Virus record (IMG/VR): IMGVR_UViG_3300030085_003649 | Coordinates: 1 to 54,420 of that record | Direction: 5' to 3' (one strand) | Source of the DNA: a virus | Length of the DNA: 54,420 nucleotides | Shown here: positions 4,556 to 8,199 of the stretch, one piece after another | Layout of the letters: the number at the start of each line of letters is the position of its first letter | How positions within the stretch are numbered: position 1 is the stretch's first letter | Notes under the pieces: generated by a model | Database searches by the model: none | Told to the model about the DNA's origin: nothing | What the model saw: the letters and a program-made list of their open reading frames with translations, nothing else | Translations under genes and position numbers: made by a program

Positions 4556-4778
4556 CTTGTTTTTTATTTGTTCTAATCATGTTAGTATCTATATCATACA
4601 GAGAGATGACATTATCGGCAACATCCTCCCATCGGATGACAACATTACATGCCATGCCTGATACTGTTTCGCCTATCAAAGTGACCGTCATATATGTCTC
4701 ACAGATAAAATTGACTCTACCATGTTTCCAAGAGTCACCACAACTGAATAAAACTGGATCACCATGATTGTACTTCAT
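4536..4778 (-). CDS. Hypothetical protein, 80 aa
   Basis: MKYNHGDPVLFSCGDSWKHGRV start, predicted mostly beta (VNFICETYMTVTLIGE), with a charged tail KKQDEDNSE. The ATG overlaps the helicase stop (4778-4775), so expression is probably coupled to the helicase. The opening G-D-P-V-L-F pattern is reminiscent of small barrel (Tudor/SH3-like) proteins, but that is only a suggestion. Confidence 0.65.
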   Translation of the reverse strand: MKYNHGDPVLFSCGDSWKHGRVNFICETYMTVTLIGETVSGMACNVVIRWEDVADNVISLYDIDTNMIRTNKKQDEDNSE

Positions 4779-5968
4779 CGGCGGACAACAGAAACGGCAG
4801 GTTCACCTTTGTGGAAGACAGTATCAACAACTGCCTGAACACTTCTAGAGGTGGAGATACCCACTTTATCATAGACAGGCACACAAATCAACCCAAATGT
4901 TTTCTGTCTGTCACCAAGACGAATCACACGACCAATAGACTGTGAGATACCAATGTAGTCCATGTTACGCATGAACAACACGGCCTCCAGTCCCTTGACA
5001 TTGATACCCTCAGACAGAATAGAGTGGTGGATGACAACAAACTTTTTGTCAGACTGTTGACCCCAGGCATTCAACGTGTTGAAGAAAGTCTCACGATCAA
5101 CCTTCTGTCCGTCGATGATTGCACCGGTCTTAGATGTAATCACCATCCAAGAATAACCACGTTGAGAGATGTCCATGCAGAACGTGGAGTTGTTCATCAG
5201 ATTGACAATCTGTTTGGTAGAACGAGCAGCAATCAGGATTTTGCTGAGAGAGTTGTCGTCAATAGTCTCCAAGAGATTCTGACAATCAGTGAGTCGATCG
5301 TCTCCGGTAGGCAACTCTTTGATGACAACCTTAGGAGGGAGAATGTAACCCTCATCCACAAGTTGCGGAGCAGGAACATTACAAATCACCTGACCATATA
5401 CTTCAGAATCATTCATTCCTGGTTTGAATACGGTCAGAGAATGTTTAGGTGTAGCGGTGTAGAAATAGCAACGATCAGCATCACCAGAGAAGAACTCAGT
5501 CGCGGGAAAAAAGTTACGTTGAACACTGTTATGTGCTTCGTCAAAGTATATTGTGTTGACCTCAATGTCGGCTTCCATCACACGATGAAGAGAATGATAT
5601 GTGGTGAAGATGATGACATTCTCACCAACACTGCGAGCACAGTTAGCATAGAGATGAATCTTTTCAGCGTTAGTGGTGCTAGTGAAGTGAGTCTCACCAC
5701 TGTGGACGTGCATCACATGCAGATATGGGTCACTGTTGTTAGGATCAATGACCTCCATAAATTCGTTACACAGTTGTTCTGCCAACAAAATACGGGGAGC
5801 AACCACAACTGTGGTAGTGCCGTTGTTGATAACATCAAGACGGCGTTGAGTATCAACAATCATGGTCAAAGTTTTACCACCACCAGTAGGCACAATGATC
5901 TGACCCTTTTCGTGGACCAGCATGGCGTCACAGGCGCGGTTCTGATGCGGTCGAAGGGTGATGGTCAT
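4775..5968 (-). CDS. Superfamily 2 DEAD/DEAH-type DNA helicase
   Basis: 397 aa with the full SF2 motif set: Walker A PTGGGKT (27-33), motif II DEAH (143-146), motif III TATP (171-174), motif V SEGI (319-322) and motif VI QSIGRVIR (343-350). Architecture resembles ResIII/UvsW-type two-RecA-domain helicases, which unwind branched recombination intermediates in T4-like phages. It lacks the N-terminal domain of T4 UvsW and is shorter (about 500-590 aa there), so it is not assigned as UvsW. The start is preceded by GGAG. A terminator at 5998-6022 separates it from the gene upstream. Confidence 0.85.
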   Translation of the reverse strand: MTITLRPHQNRACDAMLVHEKGQIIVPTGGGKTLTMIVDTQRRLDVINNGTTTVVVAPRILLAEQLCNEFMEVIDPNNSDPYLHVMHVHSGETHFTSTTNAEKIHLYANCARSVGENVIIFTTYHSLHRVMEADIEVNTIYFDEAHNSVQRNFFPATEFFSGDADRCYFYTATPKHSLTVFKPGMNDSEVYGQVICNVPAPQLVDEGYILPPKVVIKELPTGDDRLTDCQNLLETIDDNSLSKILIAARSTKQIVNLMNNSTFCMDISQRGYSWMVITSKTGAIIDGQKVDRETFFNTLNAWGQQSDKKFVVIHHSILSEGINVKGLEAVLFMRNMDYIGISQSIGRVIRLGDRQKTFGLICVPVYDKVGISTSRSVQAVVDTVFHKGEPAVSVVRR

Positions 5969-5997: not shown

Positions 5998-6022
5998 AAA
6001 AAAAGGGGGTCTGGCGACCCCC
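5998..6022 (-). terminator. Rho-independent terminator after the DUF262-like gene
   Basis: A perfect 7-bp stem, GGGGGTC (6005-6011) with GACCCCC (6016-6022), and a TGGC loop on the plus strand; seven A residues at 5998-6004 become a T-tract on the minus strand. It lies 9 nt past the stop codon of the 6031-7374 gene and would isolate that gene from the helicase operon downstream. Confidence 0.9.
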
Positions 6023-6030
6023 TAGGACAC

Positions 6031-7374
6031 TCATACACCTGGCACAGGGTTCCTCCCCAGACTCAGGTTGTCTCCACCCTCCTGAACCACGCAATTCTCC
6101 TGATCGGTGGCACCTCCATCAGCATATGGTTTAGCGTGTCCACCGTGATACTCACCAGGATCAAACAATTTGCCACGTTTGATTGGTTTTCCCTCAGGAG
6201 TTACCCAGTTCTGAGCAACAGAGGCAATGAACTTCTCATCCTTAGTAAAGTTTCGACGTGAATCTGTAAGAGTGCAATACTTTGTCGGATCCCACAATTT
6301 AGAGATGATCTCTTTACGAAGACGGTTGAAGTTTGCTTCACGCGAACGGAGCAATTCCTTGTAAGTTGCCTCACGACCGTTGTTGTAAGTGTAGGTGGTG
6401 AGATCTGTCAAAGATGTGGCATGTGCCTTGAAGTAGTCAACAAAGAAAGACTCACGATCATTGACAACATAGTTGTTGTCGTTCAAATCTTTGTATACAA
6501 GGAAGAGATCAAGGATGCAATTTTTGTTGGGTACAGCACCGATGTCATCACCAATAAAGGAGATGAAGTTCTTAAGATCAGACTCAAATTTGCGAATCAG
6601 TTTGTCTTCTGTCGATCCAGATTCATATGCAGACCAAAGATTTTTGTCCGAAACCTTGGTAGAAATACCATGGAAATACAAGAGAGCAAGACCAGCAATG
6701 AAGTCGTCAATCTTGCGTCGGTTGATGTCCTTCGGTGTGAAGAACTTGGAGAACGTATCCTGATAGGTTGTAGCAAGAGAGCGAATGACCGCAGAGAACT
6801 CTGAGATCACTGCATTACGTTTCTCCGGACCATTCAGAGAGATGCCATCATTCATGCGAATGAATAGTTCAGAAAGTTGTGAACGTGTTGCAGATGTAAT
6901 CACCTCGACAGTAACAACGGCATTCTTCAGTGCCTGAAGAAGAACATTAGGGAGAGTATCATATCTGTCATTCTCACCTTCAATCACCTCAATAACTTGA
7001 CCATTCACTTCATAAAATCCAGGTTGAATACCAAACTCACCACGAATATATTCACCAATGGTGGTAACACGATTGTTAGAATCGATGTTGAGATACTCAA
7101 TCAAACGTGAACGCCAAGATTCAAAATAAACTCGATCTCCAGGGTTCTTAGAAGTAACCTTACAGGCATCTGTAGACGCAAGGATAAACTTAGATGGAGC
7201 CATTCCCAGAATCAGAGATGTGATATAGGAAGACTTATTTTCGAGAGACCATCGAACCCTAGACTGAAAACTGTAGTCAGCCATAGTGACTGAATGAACT
7301 TCGTTGATAAACTCCTCGACGGTATACTTGTAGAAGTCCGAAACAATGGGATTGAACGTGTGCTTGTTAGACAT
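6031..7374 (-). CDS. DUF262-family protein with C-terminal HNH-like motif (GmrSD-like)
   Basis: 447 aa. The N-terminal half matches the DUF262 pattern: FQSRVRWSLENKSSYITSLILG (36-57), IDSNNRVTTIGEYI (97-110, at the place of the usual DGQQR nucleotide motif), and LFIRMNDGISLNGPEKRNAV (170-189), the most diagnostic segment. The C-terminus GGHAKPYADGGATDQEN...NLSLG (411-440) resembles an HNH nuclease (H413, N427, N436). GmrSD-type DUF262 proteins are NTP-dependent modification-sensing nucleases. Altered DGQQR and incomplete HNH residues may mean lost or changed activity. It has its own promoter candidate, palindromic leader and terminator, and no clear Shine-Dalgarno sequence. Natural role unknown; phage-phage competition is inference. 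Confidence 0.75.
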   Translation of the reverse strand: MSNKHTFNPIVSDFYKYTVEEFINEVHSVTMADYSFQSRVRWSLENKSSYITSLILGMAPSKFILASTDACKVTSKNPGDRVYFESWRSRLIEYLNIDSNNRVTTIGEYIRGEFGIQPGFYEVNGQVIEVIEGENDRYDTLPNVLLQALKNAVVTVEVITSATRSQLSELFIRMNDGISLNGPEKRNAVISEFSAVIRSLATTYQDTFSKFFTPKDINRRKIDDFIAGLALLYFHGISTKVSDKNLWSAYESGSTEDKLIRKFESDLKNFISFIGDDIGAVPNKNCILDLFLVYKDLNDNNYVVNDRESFFVDYFKAHATSLTDLTTYTYNNGREATYKELLRSREANFNRLRKEIISKLWDPTKYCTLTDSRRNFTKDEKFIASVAQNWVTPEGKPIKRGKLFDPGEYHGGHAKPYADGGATDQENCVVQEGGDNLSLGRNPVPGV

Positions 7375-7385
7375 GCTTTTTAATA

Positions 7386-7423
7386 AAACTGCATAGTGTC
7401 AGTTTAGAGCGATCCATGGATCG
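7386..7423 (-). promoter_or_regulatory. Palindromic leader of the DUF262-like gene (candidate operator)
   Basis: Two inverted repeats lie just before the start codon: the perfect 14-bp palindrome CGATCCATGGATCG (7410-7423) and AAACTG/CAGTTT with an 8-nt centre (7386-7405 region). Both fall between the candidate promoter and the ATG and could be protein-binding sites or RNA hairpins. Confidence 0.5.
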
Positions 7424-7442
7424 GTCATCCACCAACAGATCC

Positions 7443-7472
7443 AATGTAACACTAGCCAGAGACCCCTGGCAA
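7443..7472 (-). promoter_or_regulatory. Candidate sigma-70-type promoter for the DUF262-like gene
   Basis: The minus strand has TTGCCA (7472-7467), an 18-nt spacer and TACATT (7448-7443). Spacing is acceptable and both boxes match consensus in 4 of 6 positions. A GCCAG/CTGGC inverted repeat (7455-7470) overlaps the -35 and spacer. Confidence 0.45.
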
Positions 7473-7476
7473 CGTT

Positions 7477-8199
7477 TTAATTGATAACAGGTCCCATCCA
7501 CCCAGTCGCGATCAATTTGTCATTCTTATCAGTCACAGAACCGACGTGAGGATATGTCCACCCAGCAGGCCAGAACAGGGTTAAACCTTTTTTGCATGGG
7601 ATAGTAACTTTTTGTTGTGGAAAATGTGTCCCTCCAATAGGATCTCCCTCAGCATCTGTCTCGTCGATGTCATTGAGATACATCATCCATACAGCTTCAC
7701 GCAACAATCCACCATGAATAGTTGGAGCAGCTCTTTCAAAATGTTGGGTAAAAAATCCTTGACCAGGTTCATAGTATTGAAACTGACATCCACCACCCTC
7801 CCAAGACCATGGAGAATGAATAATCATCGGATTCATTTTTTTATATTCCAGCAAACAAGACTGTAACCACTGAAAAATATATGCTGTCGGACCATCTAGT
7901 TCCGTTGGCCAACACTTATTTTGTGGATTTACTTCTTGAATATCTGTTAGAACTTCGTTACTCTTCTTTTGTTTGGGATCGAGACCACCTGCAACAACAC
8001 CTTCAGTGGTGTTTCCCTCTTCATGAATAGTTTTTATCTTATCATATAACCAATCACAAAGATCTAAGTCAGGAAACTGCCAAGCAACAATATCAGTGCC
8101 ATCCAGCACATCATCCATCACCGTTGGAATTACTGGTTTGTATTGATATGATATTGGAAATTCCTTATATTTTTCAAACGTATGGGATCTGCATGTCAT
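7477..8199 (-). CDS. 2-oxoglutarate/Fe(II)-dependent oxygenase (prolyl 4-hydroxylase-like)
   Basis: 240 aa. The double-stranded beta-helix core carries a metal triad of the form H-x-E (H153, E155 in TQHFERA) and a distal H218 (WTYPHVGSVT), with K228 available for 2-oxoglutarate. WMMYLNDID (171-179) is the usual strand following the first ligand. Using Glu in place of Asp is uncommon but known in the superfamily. It overlaps the tail-chaperone-like gene upstream by 26 nt, so it is co-expressed with tail-fibre genes. The substrate is unknown; hydroxylation of a virion or host protein is inference. Confidence 0.75.
   Translation of the reverse strand: MTCRSHTFEKYKEFPISYQYKPVIPTVMDDVLDGTDIVAWQFPDLDLCDWLYDKIKTIHEEGNTTEGVVAGGLDPKQKKSNEVLTDIQEVNPQNKCWPTELDGPTAYIFQWLQSCLLEYKKMNPMIIHSPWSWEGGGCQFQYYEPGQGFFTQHFERAAPTIHGGLLREAVWMMYLNDIDETDAEGDPIGGTHFPQQKVTIPCKKGLTLFWPAGWTYPHVGSVTDKNDKLIATGWMGPVIN

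Follow-up and report, generated by a model that had tools for sequence, protein, structure and literature searches.

A DUF262–HNH cargo gene of a T4-like cyanophage: a candidate endonuclease against non-self DNA, and an apparently mobile partner gene in its relatives

A T4-like cyanophage carries, as optional cargo at a site of cyanophage gene exchange, a gene for a DUF262–HNH protein, and we put about even chances on this being a phage-carried, NTP-regulated DNA endonuclease of the GmrS/SspE type that acts on non-self DNA. The comparison of relatives also suggests an unexpected lead, the most interesting of this analysis, i.e., a partner gene, phrog_19197, that appears to be mobile. The window, which is the whole stretch of DNA analysed, is a 54,420-base IMG/VR fragment, and its nearest DNA relatives, Synechococcus myoviruses such as Bellamy and S-SM2, place it among the T4-like cyanophages. 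The features of the locus are collected in Table 1.

Table 1. Position of the DUF262–HNH gene, its motifs, its putative signals, and its neighbours in the window
Feature	Positions	Strand	Basis
UvsW-like helicase, downstream neighbour, fixed right edge of the cargo slot	4775..5968	-	phrog_16, E 1e-64
Intrinsic terminator, AGGGGGTC-GCCA-GACCCCCT and T-run	6004..6023	-	Pattern match
CDS, DUF262 (ParB/Srx-like) and HNH protein, 447 aa	6031..7374	-	ORF list, family profiles, model pLDDT 89
HNH beta-beta-alpha core, residues 409–439 (G412, H413, P416, N427, N436)	6058..6150	-	Structure elements, Cas9 HNH matches, conservation
F171..N175, FxxxN motif of GmrS-type domains	6850..6864	-	Invariant in alignment of 21
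D98-S-N-N-R102, at the place of the GmrS DGQQR motif	7069..7083	-	Alignment of family
Q37..R41, 'QR' motif of GmrS-type domains	7252..7266	-	Invariant in all aligned members covering the column
Putative hairpin/palindrome CGATCCATGGATCG in leader, pairing kept, sequence not	7410..7423	-	Comparison of leaders
Conserved leader box TGTTGGTGGATGACCGA	7421..7437	-	One site in window within 3 mismatches
Sigma-70-like promoter, TTGCCA-18-TACATT, probably functional	7443..7472	-	Pattern match; conserved upstream in relatives
2OG-Fe(II) oxygenase, upstream neighbour, end of tail-fibre cluster	7477..8199	-	Pfam 2OG-FeII_Oxy_3; phrog_61

Results

Domains and predicted structure of the protein

A previous, sequence-only reading of this DNA had described an ORF of 447 aa with the DUF262 segment LFIRMNDGISLNGPEKRNAV, the motif DSNNR at residues 98–102, and the HNH-like residues H413, N427, and N436, and all of these were present as read; the start codon is ATG. 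It had also proposed a profile comparison with GmrSD, and here the outcome was divided: family profiles backed the assignment, but Pfam GmrSD_N matched the protein at 16.5 bits, below its cut-off of 33.2, and therefore the DUF262 assignment is based on family profiles together with motifs and structure. Two PHROGs families matched the protein, both annotated as function unknown. No match to the protein was obtained with NCBIfam or PADLOC, a phmmer search of PDB with the single sequence gave no credible match, and Rfam had none for the whole 54,420-base window.

An AlphaFold model, for which the alignment input was 21 relatives, showed a mean pLDDT of 89 and a pTM of 0.76. At the C-terminus, the model placed a strand at residues 409–413, a second strand at 428–432, and a helix at 433–439, the order expected of a His-Me finger. 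When compared with PDB by Foldseek, this C-terminus matched Cas9 HNH domains with a probability of 0.99–1.00, for several of them at an rmsd of about 2 over 70 columns, and Cas9 HNH domains were also found by the family profile, at E 7e-6. The top Foldseek match was ParB bound to CDP, and it was weak (E 0.09, probability 0.63); BrxU was also matched, lower in the list. Among the BFVD viral models, 21 matched at E 0.001 or better; of those with names, the majority were GmrSD_N or DUF262 proteins, and the matches to 'GmrSD N-terminal' viral proteins reached E 1e-11. In these models, the HNH fold is well supported, and the DUF262 fold is supported, backed by viral relatives and motifs, so that the two-domain composition first read from the sequence was borne out by the modelled beta-beta-alpha core, the Cas9 HNH matches by fold and profile, and the viral GmrSD_N folds. 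At the putative metal site, Gly412 stands at the place of the usual Asp.

Motifs and the two clades

The motifs QR, (I/V)D...R, and FxxxN of GmrS-type proteins, and the H-N-N of their nuclease, have been defined previously (PMC4619093). At the second of these, the window protein reads IDSNNR against (I/V)DGQQR in GmrSD, with the D and the R kept and G-Q-Q changed. In the alignment of 21 diverse relatives, D98, N101, R102, F171, N175, H413, N427, and N436 were invariant. The protein tree contains a separate, fully supported clade B, of the S-SSM7 type, with DGGNR and a canonical D-H HNH, while clade A, which includes the window protein, has DSNNR in every member and a G-H HNH; D98, N101, R102, F171, N175, H413, P416, N427, and N436 are common to both. 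Throughout aligned clade A, Gly412 replaces the Asp or Glu that usually precedes the HNH histidine, and a nearby residue, His or Gln at position 410, might substitute for the missing Asp. These changes, Gly412 and DSNNR, may point to altered chemistry or to an enzyme that has lost part of its activity, and so strict a conservation speaks for some function. One relative, L068, combines DSNNR with the canonical DH HNH. Loci L061–L067 have DSNNR relatives with no HNH domain, encoded by a 393-aa gene (e.g., L061:7992-9173), and in L061 this gene directly precedes an ATP-dependent DNA ligase (phrog_114).

Distribution of the family

In the collections searched, the DUF262–HNH family was found only in phages. 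It comprises about 60 IMG/VR loci (scans returned 36 and then 46, with overlap between the two sets), and when clade-A patterns were run in one scan against 84,980 species genomes of bacteria and archaea, no relative was found. Among named phages, four records had relatives at 22–24% identity, namely S-SSM7 (two entries), S-SSM6a, and Sf-FS3, and when 18 reference phages were searched, the family profile matched at full length only in S-SSM7 and Sf-FS3. A uvsW relative was present in 419 phage records, against these 4.

A cargo slot between the tail-fibre genes and uvsW

The gene had been placed between a helicase and tail genes, and this position was confirmed, with the UvsW-like helicase on one side and the end of the tail-fibre cluster on the other. 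A synteny comparison across cyanophages showed that the slot is empty in S-SKS1, where the tail gene and the helicase are 123 bp apart, and otherwise occupied in S-SM2 (an MjaI restriction enzyme, L042:12122-12649, PF09568, E 1e-46, plus one gene), S-PRM1 (a glycosyltransferase), and Sf-CH5 (a 425-aa gene); S-SSM7 has there a DUF262–HNH gene whose product is 24% identical to the window protein, and nine further cyanophage records contain other genes. Absence or replacement at the same site upheld the earlier suggestion of a cargo (moron) gene. The DUF262 gene of L008 is 45% identical to that of the window and about 23% to that of S-SSM7, and the other L008 neighbours, in the same order, are mostly 42–74% identical to their S-SSM7 counterparts. 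Since these neighbours are closer to S-SSM7 than the DUF262 genes are, different alleles alternate at one site.

Other occupants of the slot were also recorded. In P-SSM2, the gene before uvsW, PSSM2_038 (L171:4531-5919), has a weak DpnI_C match and, by eye, a ParB-like NGNHR motif, and it resembles c55, a gene found after phrog_19197 (E 8e-6); a dam methylase follows uvsW in this phage. P-TIM68 and S-B05 (L170, L172) have DUF6267 proteins before uvsW. The Sf-CH5 slot gene was considered as a homologue of c33, another gene found after phrog_19197, but the similarity was only weak (pairwise E 1e-4, E 0.002) and was not used.

Promoter, leader, and terminator

The own sigma-70-like promoter that had been claimed for the gene was, as a pattern alone, no better than chance (4 found, 2.9 expected); however, relatives 63–69% identical also have TTGCCA with a -10-like element after it, as well as the box TGTTGRTGGATGAC, ahead of the gene, and this recurrence indicates that the window promoter is probably functional. 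A search of all IMG/VR viral contigs with promoter and leader box joined in one pattern gave eight sites, of which seven lie in contigs of the DUF262–HNH family. The leader match in L157 was treated as chance because no DUF262 gene lies behind it.

The leader had been said to contain two palindromes, bound by a factor that tightly represses the gene. Only one of them is perfect, the 14-bp CGATCCATGGATCG, which is one of six perfect palindromes of at least 14 bp in the window and occurs only here and in the near-identical L001, while the other is an imperfect pair of 9-bp arms that shares an arm with it. In relatives, different arms at this position still pair, with 29 of the 30 possible pairs formed over five leaders, and upon permutation of the arms only 2 of 120 arrangements, the true one included, reached 29 pairs, which for five related sequences is modest evidence. 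Because the pairing is conserved and the sequence is not, an RNA hairpin explains the leader better than an operator; the palindrome thus looks like a hairpin, and repression by a palindrome-binding factor was rejected. When compared with L007, the L006 leader (L006:7895-8000) has an inserted, partly repeated stretch, CGGCACACTCCG. The intrinsic terminator that had been noted is present, and most close relatives have one of this type after the gene.

Linkage with phrog_19197 in relatives

Outside cyanophages, clade-A genes were often found directly downstream of phrog_19197, in several unrelated neighbourhoods of marine T4-like phages. When clusters at 80% identity were counted, 6 of the 14 from outside cyanophages, and 0 of the 9 from cyanophages, had phrog_19197 on the same strand no more than three genes upstream. 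On the protein tree, which has some open forks and long branches, this adjacency changes five times, at least four of them forced, and the cyanophage clade-A group falls near the phrog_19197-adjacent L080/L084, with support of 92/96 on an open fork. L080 and L084 share 2301 bp at 88.9%, from 37 bp before phrog_19197 through the DUF262 gene; this block ends at the contig end of L084, and the upstream flanks are unrelated, with replication genes in one case and structural genes in the other. L017 and L020 have in common 2471 bp at 71.6%, with no more than the phrog_19197–DUF262 pair inside this block. Shared blocks with differing flanks suggest that the two genes travel together from one site to another, unrelated one. 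The description of the window gene as a free-standing cassette is therefore true of this copy, whereas in relatives elsewhere the gene is one of two that make up a unit.

The phrog_19197 gene, of about 376 aa, matched Pfam DruA above the cut-off (E 7e-11). Its AlphaFold model was poor (pLDDT 69), and the best PDB matches of this model were nearly all GNAT acyltransferases. The possibility of a Mom homologue was discarded, as a profile comparison with phage Mu Mom was negative (0.2% probability). In line with the Mom-REase proposal for jumbo phages (PMC7824862), phrog_19197 may mark DNA.

With phrog_19197 as the query, 80 loci were fetched and the following genes compared. These varied: some were DUF262 genes, of clade A or more distant, others were HNH-HTH or ParB-like genes, and many had ordinary roles in replication or no apparent connection, e.g., uvsX or, by eye, a radical-SAM-like gene. 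The neighbours taken as PD-(D/E)xK-like (L081, L103, L146) and as ParB-like (c33, c55, L090) were classed by eye only, and as neither Pfam nor PHROGs confirmed these classes, no weight was put on them. In one locus, an EcoRI homologue lies two genes after phrog_19197 (L076:7679-8353, PF02963, E 8e-18), and another has two tandem phrog_19197-like genes (L106:1457-3994).

The 54-kb window fragment contains no phrog_19197, and the window gene is not beside one. A 148-kb contig of a 68%-identical relative carries both DUF262–HNH and phrog_19197, the latter near gp62, as it also is in S-SSM7, and Sf-FS3 carries phrog_19197 too. This gene is common without an adjoining nuclease (HTVC008M, S-CAM9), and roughly two in three of the cyanophage records sampled have it whether or not a DUF262 gene is present, so that co-occurrence in cyanophages is no evidence of joint function and was set aside as such.

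Discussion

Proposed mechanism and known systems

SspE couples its DUF262 GTPase strictly to its HNH, and GTPase and nicking alike require the motif arginine (PMC13251355). Because of the analogy with this enzyme, we propose a mechanism in which the ParB/Srx-like domain, upon binding NTP and some DNA feature, would release the C-terminal HNH to nick or cut; it is testable at D98, N101, R102, and the HNH residues. The target would be DNA other than the phage's own, from a competing phage or the host, and the gene would be made early from its own promoter. We infer NTP use, cutting, target, and early timing alike. Self-DNA may be spared through a mark set by a separate GNAT/DruA-like enzyme, phrog_19197, a step suggested by relatives only. 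Against the endonuclease reading, we counted DSNNR in place of DGQQR, Gly412, the HNH-less L061–L067, the weak N-terminal PDB matches, the sub-threshold Pfam score, and the window fragment without phrog_19197.

Like the GmrSD/type IV proteins (DUF262 plus DUF1524 or HNH, e.g., BrxU and Eco94GmrSD), the window protein has a ParB/Srx-like domain followed by a His-Me finger, and QR, (I/V)D...R, FxxxN, and H-N-N are common to both (PMC4619093). GmrSD differs in having DGQQR and an E/D before the HNH histidine, where the window protein has DSNNR and Gly. Unlike GmrSD, the window protein scores below the Pfam GmrSD_N cut-off, and its HNH is closest to Cas9 among solved structures; its family is found in lytic marine phages, whereas GmrSD belongs to bacterial defence islands. 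By the published motifs, with neither DGQQR nor E/D-H-N-N, it is not a GmrSD, but it likely works like one. SspE, a phosphorothioate-sensing DUF262-HNH GTPase, has the same domain order and makes a recognise-hydrolyse-activate scheme plausible (PMC13251355), but the window protein is shorter (447 aa, against SspE residue numbers to at least 724), its motif is changed, and the ssp/dnd sulfur-modification genes linked to SspE were not noticed among the neighbours of the window gene, as judged by annotation only. SSSM7_035 of S-SSM7 and SfFS3_32 of Sf-FS3, annotated as HNH endonucleases, have the same pre-uvsW slot and the same two domains at 22–24% identity; unlike the window protein, they have DGGNR and the canonical DH HNH. 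Mom-REase fusions, in which a GNAT DNA modifier is tied to a phage-borne nuclease, have been proposed in jumbo phages (PMC7824862). The phrog_19197–DUF262 pair shares this idea, with separate genes, a first gene that is DruA-like rather than Mom-like by sequence, and DUF262–HNH as the partner; in the window, the two are not adjacent.

Alternative explanations

A more specific form of the endonuclease explanation, which we hold tentatively and with less confidence than the general one, is that the functional unit is a mobile restriction-modification-like cassette, in which phrog_19197 would mark phage DNA and DUF262–HNH would cut what is unmarked. Marine T4-like phages would then have a two-gene module of a GNAT/DruA-like marking enzyme and an exchangeable partner (DUF262–HNH, EcoRI, HNH, or ParB-like), used by lytic phages as restriction-modification against rivals, and the window gene would be a separated branch in the tail–uvsW slot, with the marking enzyme elsewhere in the genome; this module is a possibility of the same tentative order. 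It is consistent with clade-A genes that follow phrog_19197 immediately in several unrelated neighbourhoods, the L080/L084 and L017/L020 blocks, the changes of adjacency on the tree, and the HNH-HTH, EcoRI, other DUF262, and ParB-like genes that also follow phrog_19197. The DruA match, the GNAT matches of a low-confidence model, the 148-kb cousin contig with both genes, and the same logic proposed for the jumbo-phage Mom-REase fusions (PMC7824862) point the same way. However, phrog_19197 is neither beside the window gene nor in the fragment, it often has no nuclease beside it (HTVC008M, S-CAM9), it shows no measurable similarity to Mu Mom, and its presence in most sampled cyanophages means that co-occurrence proves little.

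That the HNH has little or no catalytic activity, and the protein instead serves as a ParB/Srx-fold regulator or clamp, aiding a DNA-modifying enzyme or controlling expression, we consider unlikely. Such a role would fit Gly412 at the place of the Asp/Glu metal ligand, the relatives without HNH in L061–L067, and the ParB-like genes after phrog_19197 in which no nuclease domain was recognised. Nevertheless, even where protein identity is about 35%, H413, N427, and N436 do not vary, and unless they serve catalysis or a strict structural role, such constancy is difficult to account for. The canonical DH is also retained in clade B, whose genes occupy this slot in other cyanophages.

Decidedly improbable is a homing-type endonuclease that acts selfishly, carrying its gene into phages that lack a copy. 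The HNH domain, the movement between phages, and the very different alleles that alternate at one site would agree with it, but the gene has its own promoter and terminator, and the family occupies several unrelated sites, where it is carried as a pair with another gene. The DUF262–HNH architecture is not known from homing enzymes. Lastly, degradation of host DNA for nucleotide recycling, which a lytic T4-like cyanophage and a predicted early promoter would suit, is the least probable by our estimate, since presence in few cyanophages, next to the far more numerous uvsW records, indicates that DUF262–HNH is not a core need.

Biological meaning

The preferred reading remains that of a phage-carried endonuclease of the GmrS/SspE type. 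If it is correct, then abundant marine phages are equipped with portable nuclease modules, and these could decide the winner in a co-infected cell; a candidate DNA-marking enzyme accompanies one of the modules. A DUF262–HNH family with a fixed non-canonical motif also tests how far DGQQR and the HNH metal site tolerate change, and phrog_19197 with DUF262–HNH offers a concrete gene pair for phage-encoded discrimination between self and non-self.
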